From contig NZ_JAUSCH010000031.1 of assembly GCF_030651595.1 (NCBI RefSeq), positions 1-36,866 of the forward strand: a DNA stretch of 36,866 nucleotides, in the 5' to 3' direction. Shown here one piece after another: positions 7,916-19,386 of this stretch. The notes beneath the pieces are model-generated. The model had not been told where the DNA came from. It worked only from the letters and a program-made list of their open reading frames with translations, and ran no database searches. Position 1 is the first letter of the stretch. Each line of letters starts with the position of its first letter. This DNA is from Candidatus Oleimmundimicrobium sp. (GTDB taxonomy: Bacteria > Actinomycetota > Aquicultoria > UBA3085 > Oleimmundimicrobiaceae). Made by a program: the position numbers and the translations under genes.

Positions 7916-10900
7916 TTACTCACCCCACAGTTGCGAAGGATACCTATTAAGCTCAACAGCAAAATCTCTATTCTTTAGTTGCATTTTTAATACCTCACTC
8001 TTAAAAACATCGACTATTTGTTCCCCCATATCAGCCCCGGGGGTAGTATCATATTTTAAAAACGCCTCGTTTCTCTGGCTGTATTCATCGGCAAAATCTA
8101 TCCAGCCCTGTTTCGCCTTACCTTCTGAACCCTCTACAATCTCATCTAAAAACTTTTCCGTCTTTTGGCGATAAACAAATCTCATCTGTTTTCTATATGC
8201 TCGATACCAAGGGTCGGAATAGTTACGGTCAACCGCTTCTCTAATTTCTTCGAGTTTTTCGTCATACTCTCTCTGGTTAGAAATAATCTCTTTACCAGCA
8301 GAAATACCAGATAAAAATTCTGAATATGATTTTCTGGTATAAAAAGGGACTTCTTCTTCTGATAAAGCCCCGAAATATCTTCCTTGTTCTTTTTCTAAAA
8401 GATACGTCTTTAGTTCTTTATCAGACATTTTGATCATTTTCTCTGCTTCTTTTCTCTGTGTTTCTTGAGCAGAAACATCTCCTGGCTCGAAATAAATATC
8501 GCTCTCTTTTAGTTTTGCGAGAGATTCTTCTTCGCCTTTTATGAATCTACCCTTTAGGGTTCTCTTGATTTTTGCTTGCACTTCTTCGGATTTAAGAAGC
8601 TTCCGGCCTTCTTCGCTTTGCTCTAAAACTTCTACCTTATATCTATCTTTAACATCATTAATAGTTCTCTCGATTAACTTCTTTTTTTCTTCATCGCCTA
8701 AAATCTTGTATTCTGATGTGTTTATAACACTAGCTGCGGTTTTGGCAATCTCTTTGCCAGTCTTTTCTTTCAACCATTCATATTCTTTACTATTTAACCC
8801 CAGACCAAATACTGATGTACTTGGGAACCCTAGCGTTGTTTTTAGTCTTGATAATTCTTTTTCTAGGGAGGGGTAATCTTTTGTCTCGAAGGGAACTTTT
8901 TCATCAAAATACGCTCTGCCGGCCTTAGTTTTAGCTGGCCCCAGAAGAAATGATTTTGCAGTTTCAACCGGAGCTCTATCAACCCGATATAGAGATTTTC
9001 CGGCTTCACTAAACACGCCACCCTTCATTTGCTCTTCTATTGCTCCGTATATTCTGTAAAACTGGACACCACCAGGGATTTTGGCAGCAGAAGTTCCGTA
9101 TGTAATAAGTTGTCGTCTTAGCTTTTTAGAATCTCCCGTTTCAATTAATTCCTTAAACCCTGTCCAGGTGTCTGTAATTAAACTTGCTAAAACTATTGGG
9201 TTTCTCTCTTGGAACCATTGGCCGGCAATCGGTATCGCTGATGCAATTTTCCAGGGTCTCCTGCCTGTTAATCTCTCAATCCCAGCGTTCATTACCATCG
9301 CTACGGCTATTAAAGTAAGCCCTATTTTAACTCGCTCATTTACAGTTCTAGGAGAACCAACTGCCCCTTTTACCTCTTTTACGGTGTTATATAACTCAAA
9401 AGAAAAGGTCTGCCAGGGGGCCCCTGCCTTGATTACGCTACTTCTTAAAAGCCCTGGTAAATCTTCTTTGTTATACATTGATTGGGTAAAAGCCCCACCA
9501 TCAGAAGCAAATGCCCTTAGGTCTTTGCCTTTTAACCCTCGTTTCTGCCCTTGTGAGTAAGCAGCAGACGCAGACCAACCGGTTAAATGATACTCGATAA
9601 CATCACCTAAATATGTTCCCACCGTTTCCATCGTTTCCAAAGGGGTTCGTCTGTCGAGTTTCAAAGGAATCTCTAAATCCTGATACATCAACCGACCTTG
9701 TTTCCGGCTCTTAGTAAATAAACTGTAATAGTTCTTGTGAACCTCGTTTCGCCAACCCTTAGATACAAACCATTTTATAGCTGTCGGAGAAAGGATATGT
9801 TGTTGGTATCTTGCCATAGTTAAACCGGAACTTGATGTTTGGATAGTTAGGTTCCAGGCAAAATTAAAAGGGAATACGGCTCTATGGAGAATCCTTCTCG
9901 CCGAGTCTATCGCCTTTTTTTGCTTGTGTGTGATTTTAAATGTTCTATCCCAAGTGGAACTCAACCCACCATAACTCTCAACTGCCCAGTTCTCAAAATA
10001 AGCAGCCGTGTTATCCAGCCCTTTTGTTTTCAAAACCTCGACGTGGGCTTTAGTGTTTTGGACAATAGGGGTGTTATAAATATCAGACATCATTGTATGG
10101 ACATAACTGTCATAAACTTTGTCAAAATCTTTTTCATACGTTCTTAATTTGTTCTTCCTGGCTTCTGCGTGAGGGTTGAATGGTGCATTGGGTTTTATAT
10201 AATCAGGAATATATTTATCTTTTACAATCTCATGTGGTTTGACCTTTAACCCGAACAACTGGTTCCAGGTATTTGATTCCTGCATGTGAGGCATATAATT
10301 CTCAATATAATCCATCGCTTTCTTGCCCATGGCAACTCTTTCGGTATTAACTAACTCTCTTAATCCATCTAAAACTTTTCTGGTTTCTTGGGCAAAACCG
10401 ACATATTTTTCTTCCGCTTTAAGTTTTTTGGCTAATAATGCTGTGTCTTTATTAACATCTGCACCCGATATTCTTTCTAACACTTCACCAGCTTTTATGC
10501 TGTCTTTTTTACCTTTGAGTCCATACTTCTTTTTTAGTTTTATCCGTTTGCCTACATAATCTTCCTCTGTAAAATCCCTAGCCATTTTTGTATGACGAGC
10601 CGGTTCTAAAATATTCTTATAAATCGGGCCACGATACCCTTCTTCTATCTTCACTTGGTCAGCGGTTAGGGCTGCCCTGGTGGGGTCTAGGGTATTTTGG
10701 TGGCTGAGCTTTAAATCTTTGAAATTATCATACATCGCAAATTCTTCTGATACCGCAAACCCTGATTTCGGGCGGATAGCGGGAACTATTTTACCGCCTT
10801 TTGTAACCCTGAAAGCTATGCCAGCGTCTCTGGTTTCTTGGATAATTAAATCTTTGGCTACGTTCTGTGCTTCTTTTTTGGTTTTATAAGTTTGGGGATA

Positions 10901-13045
10901 ATACCCTTCCCCTATACCTTTTTTAATTCTATAAAAACTTTCGTCTTTGACCTGTTCAGCAACAGGTTTTTGATACTGCGGTAAACTGTTAACAAATTGG
11001 TCGATGCTTTTCGACTGGTAAGCCCCTTCGCTCATTATCGCGAATTTCTCGCCTGTCATGGGTTCTTTTATCTTCTCAACAACCTCTGTTTTGGTGGCTT
11101 GGTTGTAGAAGTCGGTAAGTTGGGATTTGGCAGTAAGTTGTGCCTGTTCTGCTGTAATCATTTTCTTCCCATCAAAAAACTCAATCTTTATACCTTTAGA
11201 TTTCGCCAAATTTACAATCTCATCTAATTTTCCAGAAATCAAATCAGACGCAACTTGTGGATGTGAAGTATTCAGCCCTATGGCTTTTATTGATTTCCCC
11301 GAAACTGGTCTTGAAAAAACAGTTTCTGCCTCACCTCCTAACCTTTCGCCAGGTATTAAACTATATGGAGTTCCTTTATGTCCAATCGCTTTTTCATCTA
11401 AAATCAAGCGATAAGGCGAATCCGCATACCTACTGAAATTATCAAAATCCCTCGTAACGCTTACTACTGGTTTTTTTTGAAACATAACTTTTGAAAGTTT
11501 AATTTCTCCACTTTCTAAAATACCTTTTAATCCAGTTAAGCTCGTATCGTGATATAATGGATTACCTCCAGCACCAACTATTTCTTTTATTACAGGCGGT
11601 CTTTTTATATTTACAAACTCCTCCGCACTCTTATACTTCCTTGCTTCAATTGCCAATGGTTGTAATTCTTTAGAGATACCTTCTGGTGTTCTGGGTGCGT
11701 CTTTTAACCCTGCTGTTTCTACTCTCTCACCCATAAGCCCAAGGACAATAGGTTCCGTTAGTTTGCCGAATTCAAGCATATCTTTAATAGAGTGAAGTTT
11801 AGCCACTTCTTTGGGGTCTGTTTTGATTTTGTCAAGATTCTCTTTTAACTGTTCTCCAATATTCATTTCTAATTTAGGGATTATGTTTTTAATAATAAAG
11901 CCAGATTCCTCATCGGTTAAACCTGCTTCTTTTAATTCACCATTGGTCTTATCGTAACCAACCAAAGAGAAAGCAGAAGAAGCCCCGCCAGCTAATATCG
12001 CACCCATAAGTGCAGCTTGACCAACATTTTCAGATAATCTTTGTTGTTTGTCTATGCCTATCTTCGACCATACATTTGAGCCAAACTCCTGTAACCCTTC
12101 CTGTAACGCTTCTGATGAACTTCTAATAACAAAACCCAATGCCTTAGAAGGGTATCTAGCCATTAAAAACTCTAACCCGATTGCCTCTAACGCTCCTTCT
12201 GTTACAGCAGCGGCCCCACCTAAAGCAGCTGCCTTCCCAACCGAGACATCGGCTTCTCTAGCTTCCTGATATTTACCCGTTCCAGCCAGCCAGCCAAAGA
12301 GTAAAACAGGGGTTGTGCTACCACCCGTTAAGGCGTGTAACCCTACCGCTGCTCCTAAGCTCGCTGCCCCCGACCCTAAATTAAACAAGAAAGATTCGAG
12401 TTTATCATCACCTTTAGGTTTACCGGGTAAGTTCTCAAGATATTCTTTATTTTCCTTGATTATCTCTTTTCCGTATTCAGTTAATTTAGAAGATTTAGAA
12501 GGGTCTTTCTCGATCCAGTTCTTTTCTTTATCGCTCCACTCATACTTGTCTAAACCCAGTTTTTCCCCTATCTCCCCCATCGCCCTTAATTCTGCTCCGT
12601 AATGATGCTTCACGTTCAAGGTGGCATAAGCAAGCCCTTTAGCAGGTGCAGTTAGCCATTCTTTCCAGGGTTTTATTGATTCAGGAATATTGCTCGGCCA
12701 AATATCGTGGCTTGTCTCAATAGGAATAGAGGACATAGTAAGACCCAATGCCAACCCCGGGTCCATTTTCCTCCCGTAATAACTTTGGTGGGATAAATCA
12801 AATGCCTCTAATCTCCTATTAAAATCAGCAATAGATTTAGGCGTAGTAAGTTTCTTTACTTCCCTATCCATAGAGGGTAGGGAAAGGGGTTTTGCTTCCC
12901 TTTCCCTTTGCGGAGGATGAGAGGGTTGGGTAAATCGTTTCATTTCATCAAATTTTGTTTTACCGAGATACCCTATCTTCTTCGGGTTTGTCGATGGTAT
13001 CGCTCGGCTTAGGGCGTTCGTTATCTGCCCCTCCAGTTTCCACAT
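7916..13045 (-). CDS. Giant 1709-residue virion/ejection protein with ART-like segment
   Basis: The protein takes 14% of the genome. Residues about 220-360 are rich in Gly/Ala with hydrophobic runs (GAASLGAAVGLHAL and later AALMGAILAGGASS), typical of membrane-active ejection proteins. Around residue 498 there is YHDTSLTGLKGILESGEI, followed about 20 residues on by VVSVTRDFDNFSRY, which resembles the H-x-T/S and Y/R strands of ADP-ribosyltransferases found in phage polyvalent proteins. Residues 1060-1320 contain a helical domain with further hydrophobic stretches. The C-terminal 350 residues are coiled-coil-rich. There is no lytic motif I can identify. A start at 13045 lies inside the upstream 142-residue gene. 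Role in DNA ejection is inferred from size, position and composition. Confidence 0.8.
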   Translation of the reverse strand: MWKLEGQITNALSRAIPSTNPKKIGYLGKTKFDEMKRFTQPSHPPQREREAKPLSLPSMDREVKKLTTPKSIADFNRRLEAFDLSHQSYYGRKMDPGLALGLTMSSIPIETSHDIWPSNIPESIKPWKEWLTAPAKGLAYATLNVKHHYGAELRAMGEIGEKLGLDKYEWSDKEKNWIEKDPSKSSKLTEYGKEIIKENKEYLENLPGKPKGDDKLESFLFNLGSGAASLGAAVGLHALTGGSTTPVLLFGWLAGTGKYQEAREADVSVGKAAALGGAAAVTEGALEAIGLEFLMARYPSKALGFVIRSSSEALQEGLQEFGSNVWSKIGIDKQQRLSENVGQAALMGAILAGGASSAFSLVGYDKTNGELKEAGLTDEESGFIIKNIIPKLEMNIGEQLKENLDKIKTDPKEVAKLHSIKDMLEFGKLTEPIVLGLMGERVETAGLKDAPRTPEGISKELQPLAIEARKYKSAEEFVNIKRPPVIKEIVGAGGNPLYHDTSLTGLKGILESGEIKLSKVMFQKKPVVSVTRDFDNFSRYADSPYRLILDEKAIGHKGTPYSLIPGERLGGEAETVFSRPVSGKSIKAIGLNTSHPQVASDLISGKLDEIVNLAKSKGIKIEFFDGKKMITAEQAQLTAKSQLTDFYNQATKTEVVEKIKEPMTGEKFAIMSEGAYQSKSIDQFVNSLPQYQKPVAEQVKDESFYRIKKGIGEGYYPQTYKTKKEAQNVAKDLIIQETRDAGIAFRVTKGGKIVPAIRPKSGFAVSEEFAMYDNFKDLKLSHQNTLDPTRAALTADQVKIEEGYRGPIYKNILEPARHTKMARDFTEEDYVGKRIKLKKKYGLKGKKDSIKAGEVLERISGADVNKDTALLAKKLKAEEKYVGFAQETRKVLDGLRELVNTERVAMGKKAMDYIENYMPHMQESNTWNQLFGLKVKPHEIVKDKYIPDYIKPNAPFNPHAEARKNKLRTYEKDFDKVYDSYVHTMMSDIYNTPIVQNTKAHVEVLKTKGLDNTAAYFENWAVESYGGLSSTWDRTFKITHKQKKAIDSARRILHRAVFPFNFAWNLTIQTSSSGLTMARYQQHILSPTAIKWFVSKGWRNEVHKNYYSLFTKSRKQGRLMYQDLEIPLKLDRRTPLETMETVGTYLGDVIEYHLTGWSASAAYSQGQKRGLKGKDLRAFASDGGAFTQSMYNKEDLPGLLRSSVIKAGAPWQTFSFELYNTVKEVKGAVGSPRTVNERVKIGLTLIAVAMVMNAGIERLTGRRPWKIASAIPIAGQWFQERNPIVLASLITDTWTGFKELIETGDSKKLRRQLITYGTSAAKIPGGVQFYRIYGAIEEQMKGGVFSEAGKSLYRVDRAPVETAKSFLLGPAKTKAGRAYFDEKVPFETKDYPSLEKELSRLKTTLGFPSTSVFGLGLNSKEYEWLKEKTGKEIAKTAASVINTSEYKILGDEEKKKLIERTINDVKDRYKVEVLEQSEEGRKLLKSEEVQAKIKRTLKGRFIKGEEESLAKLKESDIYFEPGDVSAQETQRKEAEKMIKMSDKELKTYLLEKEQGRYFGALSEEEVPFYTRKSYSEFLSGISAGKEIISNQREYDEKLEEIREAVDRNYSDPWYRAYRKQMRFVYRQKTEKFLDEIVEGSEGKAKQGWIDFADEYSQRNEAFLKYDTTPGADMGEQIVDVFKSEVLKMQLKNRDFAVELNRYPSQLWGE

Positions 13046-16601: not shown

Positions 16602-17181
16602 TTACTTCACCCTCAATCGTCTTACTTCTCATCGTTTCCAACTGCACTTGTAATATCTCTTGCTCAAGCATGACTGTGGGTATCGCGCCCCTTATCTGGA
16701 TAGCCCTAAGACCTTCAGTAACAGTCGGGGTCTTAGTCCCCGCGTAGACTTTCTCAAAGGCCTTATCGGCTATCATGTCCAGTTTACCAATAACAGACAT
16801 ATCCCTTAAAGCCAGCTTGGCCCTCTGATTGTCAATCTCCATGTTTTTCAAATCCGGGAAGTTTTTGTTCATGTGTTTATGTTTATGTCTCCAAAGATTA
16901 GCCGGAGATAAAGGTTTAGCCGAAAAGAGGTTGTGGTGATTAGCCCAACGAACAATATCGGCATCTATGAAGAGCGGTTCAAAACCAGTGATAGTGATTA
17001 AATCCTCAATTAGCCCCCGATAATAAGAAGCGCACAGCTTACACTTCGGTCCGGTGTAACTAAAATCCCTTCCGTTATCAACCCAGCTTTTTGGGTCAGG
17101 TTGTTCAGGAAAGGTCTTTTTAAAAGAACTATAAGATAATCCGTTTACTTCTTTTTGTTCGCTTAATGAAGGTCTACCCAT
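16552..17181 (-). CDS. Probable terminase small subunit
   Basis: The first late gene, 209 residues, is 50 bases overlapped with the large terminase. It has a Cys pair (CKLC at 47-50), an IDADIVRWANHHNLF helix pair with a HTH-like turn, a basic WRHKHKHM segment near residue 96, helices in the middle that could oligomerise, and an acidic tail. This fits small terminases that bind pac/cos DNA and recruit the motor, although no family is obvious. The ATG at 17181 has GAGAGG nine bases upstream. The assignment rests mainly on order. Confidence 0.7.
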   Translation of the reverse strand: MGRPSLSEQKEVNGLSYSSFKKTFPEQPDPKSWVDNGRDFSYTGPKCKLCASYYRGLIEDLITITGFEPLFIDADIVRWANHHNLFSAKPLSPANLWRHKHKHMNKNFPDLKNMEIDNQRAKLALRDMSVIGKLDMIADKAFEKVYAGTKTPTVTEGLRAIQIRGAIPTVMLEQEILQVQLETMRSKTIEGEVIEPSISETVEGEIEEE

Positions 17182-17241
17182 ATAGAAATACCTCTCTGTT
17201 GTTTAACTAAAATAGTGAAAATTCATTTGGGTTTAACACCT

Positions 17242-17270
17242 ATTATAAAACTTTTCCATTTTTAAACACC
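17242..17270 (-). promoter_or_regulatory. Late operon promoter
   Basis: On the minus strand a perfect TATAAT lies at 17247-17242, about 60 bases upstream of the small terminase ATG. No good -35 hexamer is found 16-18 bases upstream (best TGTTTA-like), so an activator may be needed. It is the only consensus -10 between the control region and the late genes. Confidence 0.6.
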
Positions 17271-17297
17271 CCGGGTCTCAATACTGATTATTAGCCA

Positions 17298-17325
17298 CCC
17301 ATACCCCATACCCCTACCCCATACC
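17298..17325 (-). promoter_or_regulatory. G-quadruplex motif and C-rich iteron upstream of the late promoter
   Basis: The plus strand has C runs of 3, 4, 4, 4 and 2 separated by ATA, ATA, TA and ATA, so the minus strand reads four G runs with loops of 3, 3 and 2 bases, a canonical quadruplex motif. The 14-base core CCCTACCCCATACC (17312-17325) is repeated exactly at 22976-22989 inside the replication initiator gene. It may be an initiator- or host-protein-binding site linking replication to late transcription. Confidence 0.6.
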
Positions 17326-17439
17326 TATCATTGAGTGATTTCTCTCCTACCCCTGCCAAATAAAAATAACTCTTTATGCGATAGTACCCTCTTATTTAAA
17401 AATGGGTATAATTCTCCTGATCCTTGTTTATTACTTTCT

Positions 17440-17780
17440 TTTCTTTATTATTTCTTTTCTTTGTTATTAGTTAATTAGTTAATAGTTATATATATTTATT
17501 ATATATATATTTATATATATATATATAATAATAATAATTATATAAATAATTATTATTATATATATTAGTTATTAGTTAATAGTTACTTTAACTTATTAAA
17601 GTATTACTGAGTAATAAAGTATTACTGAGTAATAAAATAATTAAGTAATAGGTATTAACAATTCTCAATAATCAATATATATAATACCAGTTCAGTTAAA
17701 TATAATAATAATTAAAAGAATTTATAATAATTAAATAATTAAATAGTTATTAAATATAAAAGAAAAGAAAACTCAAATCC
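17440..17780. other. Very AT-rich tract with large palindrome (possible unwinding element)
   Basis: This stretch is almost entirely A and T. Around 17505-17555 a run of TA and AAT steps is followed by its near inverse, giving imperfect arms of about 20 bases able to form a cruciform. Two related blocks, built from TTAGTTATTAGTTAATAG-like sequence, occur near 17466 and 17567. No open reading frame is present. The composition suits DNA unwinding or a promoter/insulator, but no function is proven. Confidence 0.6.
17598..17633. repeat. Perfect 18-bp tandem repeat, each with a palindromic operator
   Basis: Two exact copies of AAAGTATTACTGAGTAAT are joined head to tail. Each holds the palindrome ATTACT-G-AGTAAT, and centres are 18 bp apart, so two dimers could bind cooperatively. 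It is placed between the late promoter and the leftward terminator, where it could be an operator for a ribbon-helix-helix or HTH regulator or an origin iteron. Confidence 0.8.
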
Positions 17781-17814
17781 CCCCTTTATCCCCCCTTTAG
17801 GCAAAGAAAAGAAA

Positions 17815-17842
17815 GGCAATAAAAAAGAGCCCATAAGGCTCT
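17815..17842 (-). terminator. Intrinsic terminator, leftward
   Basis: On the minus strand AGAGCC-TTATG-GGCTCT forms a six-base-pair stem followed directly by six T residues. It would stop leftward transcription coming from the structured-RNA region before it reaches the late genes and so separates the two transcription domains. Confidence 0.8.
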
Positions 17843-18177
17843 AATTATTAACCCTATTCTACCAGGTGATAAAAATAAATGTCAAGTCCTTACAAATTTA
17901 TTTACATATCCCCACTTAAACATTGTTTTACATTTATTGTTTTTTTTATCAGAACATAGAAAAATAGCAATACTAAACCATTGGCAAACAAATATAAATA
18001 GCTTAAAACGCCATTGAACCGGGCAGCTGAAGACAAGGCGGAGTTCTTACCAAGTTATTTAAACAAATTTAAAGAAATATTAAAGTTTTATTAAAATTTC
18101 TTTTGAAATCTTTAGTTCTCTCGTCTTTAACTTCCGCCTTTATGGGGTTTCCAACAACATTAACGGGGTTTATGTTA
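17843..18177. other. Non-coding stretch, possible 5' part of the structured RNA
   Basis: No gene is visible on either strand. A segment rich in G and C at 18009-18045 stands out from AT-rich surroundings. AAGGCGG at 18035-18041 can pair with CCGCCTT at 18133-18139, enclosing an AT-rich region in which AAAGAAAT and ATTTCTTT can also pair. This may be a distal arm of the RNA at 18270-18640 or an independent element. Nothing else is supported. Confidence 0.4.
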
Positions 18178-18216
18178 ACATTTATTCCTTACTTGCTTAC
18201 ATCTATTCCTTACTTG
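18178..18216. repeat. Two 18-bp direct repeats with 21-bp spacing
   Basis: ACATTTATTCCTTACTTG (18178-18195) and ACATCTATTCCTTACTTG (18199-18216) differ at one base. Start-to-start spacing of 21 bp is two helical turns, so both would face the same side of DNA. They lie just upstream of the structured RNA, where an operator or promoter would be expected. Confidence 0.75.
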
Positions 18217-18269
18217 TTGTTGTAAACTCTGTTTCCAACGAGTAACCTTTTTTTTATTCTCTCAACCTA

Positions 18270-18640
18270 TCTTTTATTAACCCTATGCGGGAGAGAAGAT
18301 TGGAGGGTAAGAGCATACCTCCCCCTGGTAAGGAGGAGATTATGCGGTTTGAGTGAGTTGTCGGGTTGTCGCATCATTGGCTTAATTACCTGTCCAGGTC
18401 TCGCTTTACCAGGTAGTAATATGATTACTTTCGCCAAGCTCCCATCGAGAACGGGTTGTATCCTGTTTAAGGATTCTGGAAAACTAAGAAAAGACTGGCT
18501 ATAACCCAGTTTATCATCGATACTTTCAAATTCGTATCGAGGCGACTTGTTGTGATTAAATTAAATCACGGTAACCTGCCGAGAGGTTACCTGGGAGCCC
18601 TCGGCAAAAGGTCTTACGACCTGACTCCCAGATATTTTTA
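18270..18640 (+). ncRNA. Large structured RNA candidate with 3' pseudoknot and terminator
   Basis: No reading frame spans this region, yet it is dense in helices on the plus strand. GCATA-CCTCC pairs GGAGG-TATGC (18313-18345). TTGGC/GCCAA (18377-81, 18433-37) closes a three-way junction holding TACCTG/CAGGTA and AGTAAT/ATTACT. ACTGG/CCAGT (18494-98, 18506-10), TCGATAC/GTATCGA (18517-23, 18534-40) and GTGATT/AATCAC (18552-69) follow. GGTAACC/GGTTACC (18570-91) has a loop TGCCGAG that pairs with CTCGGCA at 18600-18606. The last stem CTGGGAG/CTCCCAG (18591-97, 18625-31) encloses AGGTC/GACCT and is followed by TTTTT. It is not a known class I can name; large phage RNAs such as ROOL and GOLLD are worth comparing. 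The 5' end is uncertain. Confidence 0.72.
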
Positions 18641-18846
18641 TGCTTTTAGCTTAGTTTAACAGTCAAAAATCAATACGTCAAAACCTTTTTTCAGAATCTT
18701 TTAAAAGTTTTTCGATTTATATATATCTACCCACGCTTTATCACATTAAAACGTTAATAACTTAAGTTTTGATAAATTTGTTAAAGTTTTTTTACATTTT
18801 TTTTATCTTTGCAGGTAAATGACCCTAAAATAATTAAAGTTATCTC
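18641..18846. other. AT-rich leader upstream of the early promoter
   Basis: About 200 bases follow the RNA candidate with T runs and no gene. A second run of T residues near 18687 may back up termination of the RNA. No clear hairpin or operator was seen. Confidence 0.5.
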
Positions 18847-18877
18847 TTGACACTGCCGATAATAAGAGTAGTATAGT
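18847..18877 (+). promoter_or_regulatory. Early operon promoter, sigma-70-like
   Basis: TTGACA at 18847-18852 is a perfect -35. The -10 is TATAGT (18872-18877, 19-base spacer) or TAGTAT (18869-18874, 16-base spacer). The same TTGAC(A/G) and TAGTATAG arrangement recurs at 22226, which supports it. It lies 40 bases upstream of the first early gene. Confidence 0.78.
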
Positions 18878-18916
18878 AGATAGAAAGCAAGGAAACTATT
18901 AACGGAGGTGAATTAG

Positions 18917-19153
18917 ATGAAAACCAAAGAAGAAATTTTAAAGATGAGTAAAAAAGAATTAAGAGCTTATAAATGGTCAGAGGATTTAAACAGAGGCGAG
19001 GATTGTACTGATTGCTCTCGTTGCTCCGATTGTATTGATTGCCATAGCTGTTACGCCTGTCGAAATGCGTCAGGATTAAAATACGCTATTTGTAATGTTG
19101 AAGTTGGAAAAGAATCATTTGAAAAGAAGATAGAGGAATTAGAATGCGATTAA
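18917..19153 (+). CDS. Cysteine-ladder protein (CxxC repeats at period three)
   Basis: The first early gene encodes 78 residues with seven cysteines at exactly every third position: C30, C33, C36, C39, C42, C45 and C48. They are followed by NASGLKYAICNVEVGKESFEKKI, a tail shared by a phage family of unknown role as I recall it. The period-three spacing would place all cysteines on one face of an extended or polyproline-like turn and could bind metal or a cluster. GGAGGTG lies upstream of the ATG. It is the first product after the early promoter, so an immediate-early host-interaction role is possible, but the function is unknown. Confidence 0.8.
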   Translation: MKTKEEILKMSKKELRAYKWSEDLNRGEDCTDCSRCSDCIDCHSCYACRNASGLKYAICNVEVGKESFEKKIEELECD

Positions 19154-19170
19154 CTTGAGGAGGGATTGAG

Positions 19171-19386
19171 ATGAAGGAATTAGTAAAAACATATGACATT
19201 GTTGGAAATGTGAGCGAAAAGACCTACCGGGAAATGACAAGAAAGGAAGTAGTAGAAAGACTTGAAAAGAGAGCAAAAGAGTTAATTGGTGTGAAATATC
19301 ACGTCAACCCCCTGAACTCTTTTCCAGGATACAAAAATAGAAGTAAAAAGAATTTAATGGAATTGTTGAAAGGAATGGATTTATAA
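19171..19386 (+). CDS. Hypothetical 71-residue early protein
   Basis: A GGAGGGATTGAG site precedes the ATG at 19171. The protein is basic and largely helical, with a TRKEVVERLEKRAKELIGVKYH segment in the centre and a lysine-rich C-terminal helix. No family, metal site or membrane segment is recognised. A possible hairpin and T-rich tail (19397-19424) follow it, so its transcript level may differ from that of the next gene. Confidence 0.65.
   Translation: MKELVKTYDIVGNVSEKTYREMTRKEVVERLEKRAKELIGVKYHVNPLNSFPGYKNRSKKNLMELLKGMDL

Follow-up and report, generated by a model that had tools for sequence, protein, structure and literature searches.

The ROOL and GOLLD RNAs, which occur in phages and prophages, are large, ornate and pseudoknotted; their function is unknown, and a role as scaffold or multimer has been shown structurally for both of them and for OLE (PMC12286853). 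In the phage ICP1 an abundant non-coding transcript of 800 nt occupies a gap that lacks ORFs (PMC7567579). The RNA described here is also large, pseudoknotted and located in a phage, and like that of ICP1 it lies in an ORF-less gap. It differs from ROOL and GOLLD in being shorter (about 340 nt), in giving no Rfam match to either, and in the lack of tRNA genes in the window, by which we mean the whole stretch of 36,866 nucleotides that was analyzed. The window is a phage contig with genes for terminase, portal and a DnaD-like loader, the terminase and portal genes lying downstream of the RNA.

A scan of both strands against Rfam, which had been proposed together with the original prediction, gave just one family anywhere in the window. 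This is EGFOA (RF02955, Rfam type sRNA gene), on the minus strand only. The alignment exceeds the gathering cut-off (E = 3.4e-5 for the window) and spans all 108 positions of the covariance model. The conserved single-stranded motifs CCGU and GUAAAG-NNNN-ACCUGG are present, as are the consensus helices P3, the junction and P1. The window sequence allows both P1 and P2, some of whose pairs are non-standard in the Rfam register. ROOL, GOLLD, OLE, raiA and HEARO gave no match at the gathering cut-off in the window, and none even at E values up to 10 in 17000-19200. The phage packaging-RNA models of Rfam likewise gave no match over the whole window, or in 17000-19200 at E up to 10. It had been suggested that the region might be ROOL, GOLLD or a new class, and the match places it in a known one. 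Its identification by sequence comparison as a new copy of the already catalogued EGFOA class is strongly supported. No mention of RF02955 was found in the literature searched, and the model finds no EGFOA match in the non-coding gap of ICP1.

Much of what had been noticed in the letters of the region holds. The ORF listing of the window contains no frame of at least 60 aa between 17181 and 18917, and the GC content of 18200-18600 is 0.43-0.47 against 0.25-0.33 in both flanks, so that both the absence of an open frame and the elevated GC are borne out. The named helices TTGGC/GCCAA (18437-18433 with 18381-18377) and TGCCGAG/CTCGGCA are found, together with the run of five T residues at the plus-strand end. 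The folding energy lies below that of 100 of 100 dinucleotide shuffles on either strand, with z scores of -4.0 (plus) and -3.75 (minus), as expected of a structured RNA in the original prediction. However, the stretch is rich in palindromes, and folding energy therefore cannot discriminate between the strands. We place the RNA on the minus strand because the Rfam match is found there only, and because of G-U pairs, which are valid on the true strand alone; P3 is paired in 118 of 120 cells on the modeled strand (minus in the window) and would be in 102 on the other. The original prediction was thus right that the phage encodes a large structured RNA containing a junction and pseudoknots, but read it on the wrong strand. 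It follows that the supposed 3′ end, with its pseudoknot, final stem and five T residues, is the 5′ end.

Table 1. Coordinates of the RNA, its core and the flanking signals (positions in the window)
Feature	Position	Strand	Basis
Promoter-like TTGACG-17-TAAACT	18653..18681	-	consensus scan, 9/12; predicted start about 18645
Full structured RNA	18310..18645 (about)	-	homologous elements; ends inferred
5′ domain: CUGGGAG/CUCCCAG stem around AGGUC..GACCU	18570..18631	-	sequence
Kissing pair UGCCGAG with loop CUCGGCA of GGUAACC/GGUUACC hairpin	18606-18600 / 18583-18577	-	sequence
AGUCGCCUCG then hairpin CGAUAC..GUAUCG	18518..18547	-	by-eye counterpart of CGUCAACCUCG and hairpin in Bacillus copies
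Hairpin CUGG-GUUAUAG-CCAG	18495..18509	-	counterpart of conserved (C)CC-GUUAGAG-GG hairpin
EGFOA core, RF02955	18375..18485	-	45.3 bits, gathering cut-off 37.7
PK2 5′ side UCCAG, pairs with CUGGA 18397-18393	18476..18480	-	covariation
PK1 5′ side CUCG, in loop of hairpin CCC..GGG (18441..18455)	18449-18446	-	covariation
Three-way junction: P1 UUGGC/GCCAA	18377..18437	-	Rfam alignment
P2 AGUAA/UUACU	18429-18415	-	Rfam alignment
P3 ACCUG/CAGGU	18414-18388	-	Rfam alignment; covaries
P3 loop GUAAAG-CGAG-AC-CUGGA	18393..18409	-	homologue comparison
PK1 3′ side CGAG, in P3 loop	18403-18400	-	covariation
PK2 3′ side CUGGA, in P3 loop	18397-18393	-	covariation
3′ hairpin AUCUCCUCCU(UACC)AGGGGGAGGU, then AUGCUC	18311..18340	-	also in distant relatives
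Intrinsic terminator AGAGCC UUA UGGGCUCU UUUUU	17821..17842	-	downstream on RNA's strand

Comparison of homologues shows the core to be a three-way junction whose P3 loop, GUAAAG-NNNN-ACC-UGGG, pairs back with upstream elements in two pseudoknots, PK1 (4 bp) and PK2 (5 bp). In PK1 the loop following CCGUN pairs with the four nucleotides next to GUAAAG on its 3′ side; in PK2, CCCAG pairs with CUGGG. Both are absent from the cmscan consensus line of EGFOA, which displays nested pairs only. Covariation among homologues, the main test that had been named for the original prediction, is strong. In 22 sequences aligned regardless of pairing, 98.6% of the cells of P3, PK1 and PK2 are paired, compared with 77.2% in shuffles; both sides change in 11 of the 14 pairs, and the signal is lost when the partner strands are slid out of register. 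PK1 is complete in all 24 distinct loci with 13 different pair sets, including CUCG/CGAG, GCAG/CUGC, CCUG/CAGG, CGUG/CACG and AGCG/CGUU, against a shuffle maximum of 12 complete helices, a count to be read in the knowledge that some of the anchored patterns used on IMG/VR and GTDB contigs fixed parts of PK1, and that one set of loci was kept only if PK1 and PK2 were satisfied. Loci from the search with the Rfam model are free of such selection. In a blind check of PK2, contigs were picked by CUGAG in place of CUGGG at its 3′ side. The four new loci that keep PK1 (L149, L150, L157 and L159) all have CUCAG upstream, and the contigs that fail PK1 lack it.

The 108-nt Rfam model does not cover all of the homologous sequence, which also includes a hairpin with a GUUANAG loop and a 3′ hairpin with UAUGCUC after it, and for this reason the RNA is drawn with the limits in Table 1, to which those originally predicted come close. 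The comparison shows that the window RNA and its relatives are longer than the model, with extra 5′ and 3′ domains. The 3′ hairpin with UAUGCUC or a similar sequence is found in distant relatives (L021, L036, L102-L104, L133, L137 and L138), and a GACGU..CCCGUC 5′ hairpin is common to the Bacillus copies. Base-by-base alignment of the 5′ domain of the window RNA with its relatives was not possible, and its kissing pair was not found in the homologues compared; this domain is therefore either specific to this phage or unproven.

The promoter-like site in Table 1 immediately precedes the RNA, where the structured region begins, and promoter-like sites across the region are no more numerous than expected by chance from shuffles. 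A terminator on the opposite strand had been thought to insulate the RNA from the late genes. The terminator is there, but it lies downstream on the RNA's own strand. It is the clearest terminator of the minus strand, and no other was seen between the RNA and the late genes. There is none immediately after the 3′ hairpin; this one is about 470 nt farther on, and so the 3′ end would be either processed near 18310 or extended to 17821. A second promoter-like site on the minus strand, near-consensus (TTGACA-18-TAGAAT, extended -10, 11/12), lies at 17885-17856 and is stronger than the site upstream of the RNA. In the segment 17885-17821 an intrinsic terminator comes at once after this site, ahead of the late genes, and the arrangement looks like a late promoter of the lambda pR′/tR′ type that would need antitermination. 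The interval 17400-17700, between the RNA and the late genes, is 12% GC with runs of TA repeats.

Homologues were sought with anchored patterns in IMG/VR and GTDB contigs, and with the Rfam model over whole genomes. A first motif scan with GGTAAAGCNAGACCTGG gave mostly chance matches, 2 of 18 contigs being confirmed by Rfam, and most of the 51 genome matches of one pattern search were chance-like, the real ones being in Bacillus, Neobacillus and Paenibacillus. EGFOA is found, among others, in phage contigs (L004, L016, L021, L026, L028, L034 and L036), in Bacillus sp. BHET2, Bacillus AFS041924, Neobacillus piezotolerans and Paenibacillus doosanensis, and on two plasmids, a Priestia megaterium megaplasmid (L088) and a Brevibacillus borstelensis plasmid (L146). 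The Rfam model matches in 11 of 194 Bacillaceae and 5 of 105 Paenibacillaceae genomes, the center genome counted in each. Within the window's own class and phylum the RNA occurs in this genome only (1/36 and 1/397). Scattered distributions like this one are common among mobile elements. The contig belongs to a 1.63-Mb assembly, and phage contigs are not binned with certainty. BLASTN against annotated phages gave no match for the intergenic region or for homologues L036, L073 and L137, and only short, chance-level matches for L102. TBLASTN of TerL against annotated phages also gave none, and a scan of viral contigs for TerL found one weak relative.

An all-against-all BLASTP of the neighboring proteins found no partner gene common to all loci. 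The next gene may have either orientation, and is on the opposite strand in L113, L114, L116, L118, L120, L123, L124 and L088. The absence of a shared neighbor, together with a next gene that is often on the opposite strand, points to an RNA that stands alone and acts in trans. On this comparative evidence we consider it probable that the phage RNA is an EGFOA RNA of the minus strand, with a double-pseudoknot junction core, longer than the model, having its own promoter and acting in trans. Transcription would begin from the promoter near 18681-18653, a consensus match, and the product would work as a stable structural RNA and not as the leader of a particular gene.

A wider reading, to which we give somewhat less than even weight, is that EGFOA is the core of a double-pseudoknot RNA of about 340-450 nt serving phages, phage-like satellites and plasmids, and in Bacilli a standing part of small serine-integrase elements with defense genes; it would then have a new function, as an RNA of mobile elements in general, and be comparable to ROOL or GOLLD. 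More tentatively still, by analogy with ROOL, GOLLD and OLE, the RNA might serve as a scaffold or assembly, either an RNA-only multimer or an RNP, in the active phase of the mobile element. No result of the analysis indicates a protein partner or a biochemical activity.

We consider it unlikely that the RNA is a component of an anti-phage system or an inhibitor of one. Copies in Bacilli do lie in islands that carry integrases (serine or tyrosine) together with restriction-modification genes (Type I and IIG), and in L112-L114 the RNA is preceded by small HTH genes, excisionase-like (AlpA-like) in L112. Yet no single defense gene recurs beside it, and defense islands gather mobile elements in general. 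Less probable again is a putative packaging RNA that, like the pRNA of phi29, would act by the terminase to drive or select DNA packaging. This would fit the phage copies, which, as in the window, are often near packaging and head genes (terminase, portal, capsid): the RNA is 302 nt before the terminase gene in L021, 249 nt from that of the small terminase in L140, directly after terminase in L016, upstream of it in L130 and L025, and beside the portal gene in L135. But there are also copies on plasmids and in chromosomal defense islands, no terminase is seen near phage copies L004, L026 and L138 or on the L137 contig, which has a Zot-type ATPase, and there is no match to the phage pRNA of Rfam. 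We give equally little credence to a late-operon leader, an RNA governing in cis the read-through of the terminator into the late genes by antitermination. RNA, terminator and late genes do follow in that order on one strand of the window, but the opposite-strand neighbors in many homologues speak against it, as does the stronger promoter-like site between RNA and terminator. Finally, a plus-strand RNA of a new class, as first predicted, is largely refuted, since despite the slightly better folding of that strand the EGFOA match is restricted to the minus strand and the G-U pairs of the homologues turn into A-C on the plus.

The phage EGFOA RNA puts an RNA class of unknown function on a phage that is otherwise unmatched, and on Bacillus relatives that have names and can be cultured. 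The class gains a core with covariation-supported pseudoknots, wider limits and a mobile-element distribution; with culturable Bacillus carriers and a supported core and limits, its function becomes open to testing. It is a further case of large RNAs that travel with mobile elements and defense islands.

Several further features deserve mention. In Bacilli, L112, L113, L114 and L159 are elements with a serine integrase and an EGFOA RNA. The neighbors in L113 include a protein kinase and an HD/TGS RelA-like protein, and in L159 a protein that is caspase-like by eye; these four are possibly a family of satellites with defense cargo. The L137 contig, of 10 kb, combines the Zot-type ATPase with EGFOA, and is perhaps a filamentous-phage-like element. 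Within the window, 7916-13045 on the minus strand encodes a protein of 1709 aa with no relative in annotated phages by TBLASTN, and whose similarity to the phage profile phrog_2206 (virion RNA polymerase) is only weak and local (E = 2e-4). On the plus strand, 18917-19153 contains a small cysteine-rich ORF with repeated CxxC motifs and a weak match to phrog_15341.
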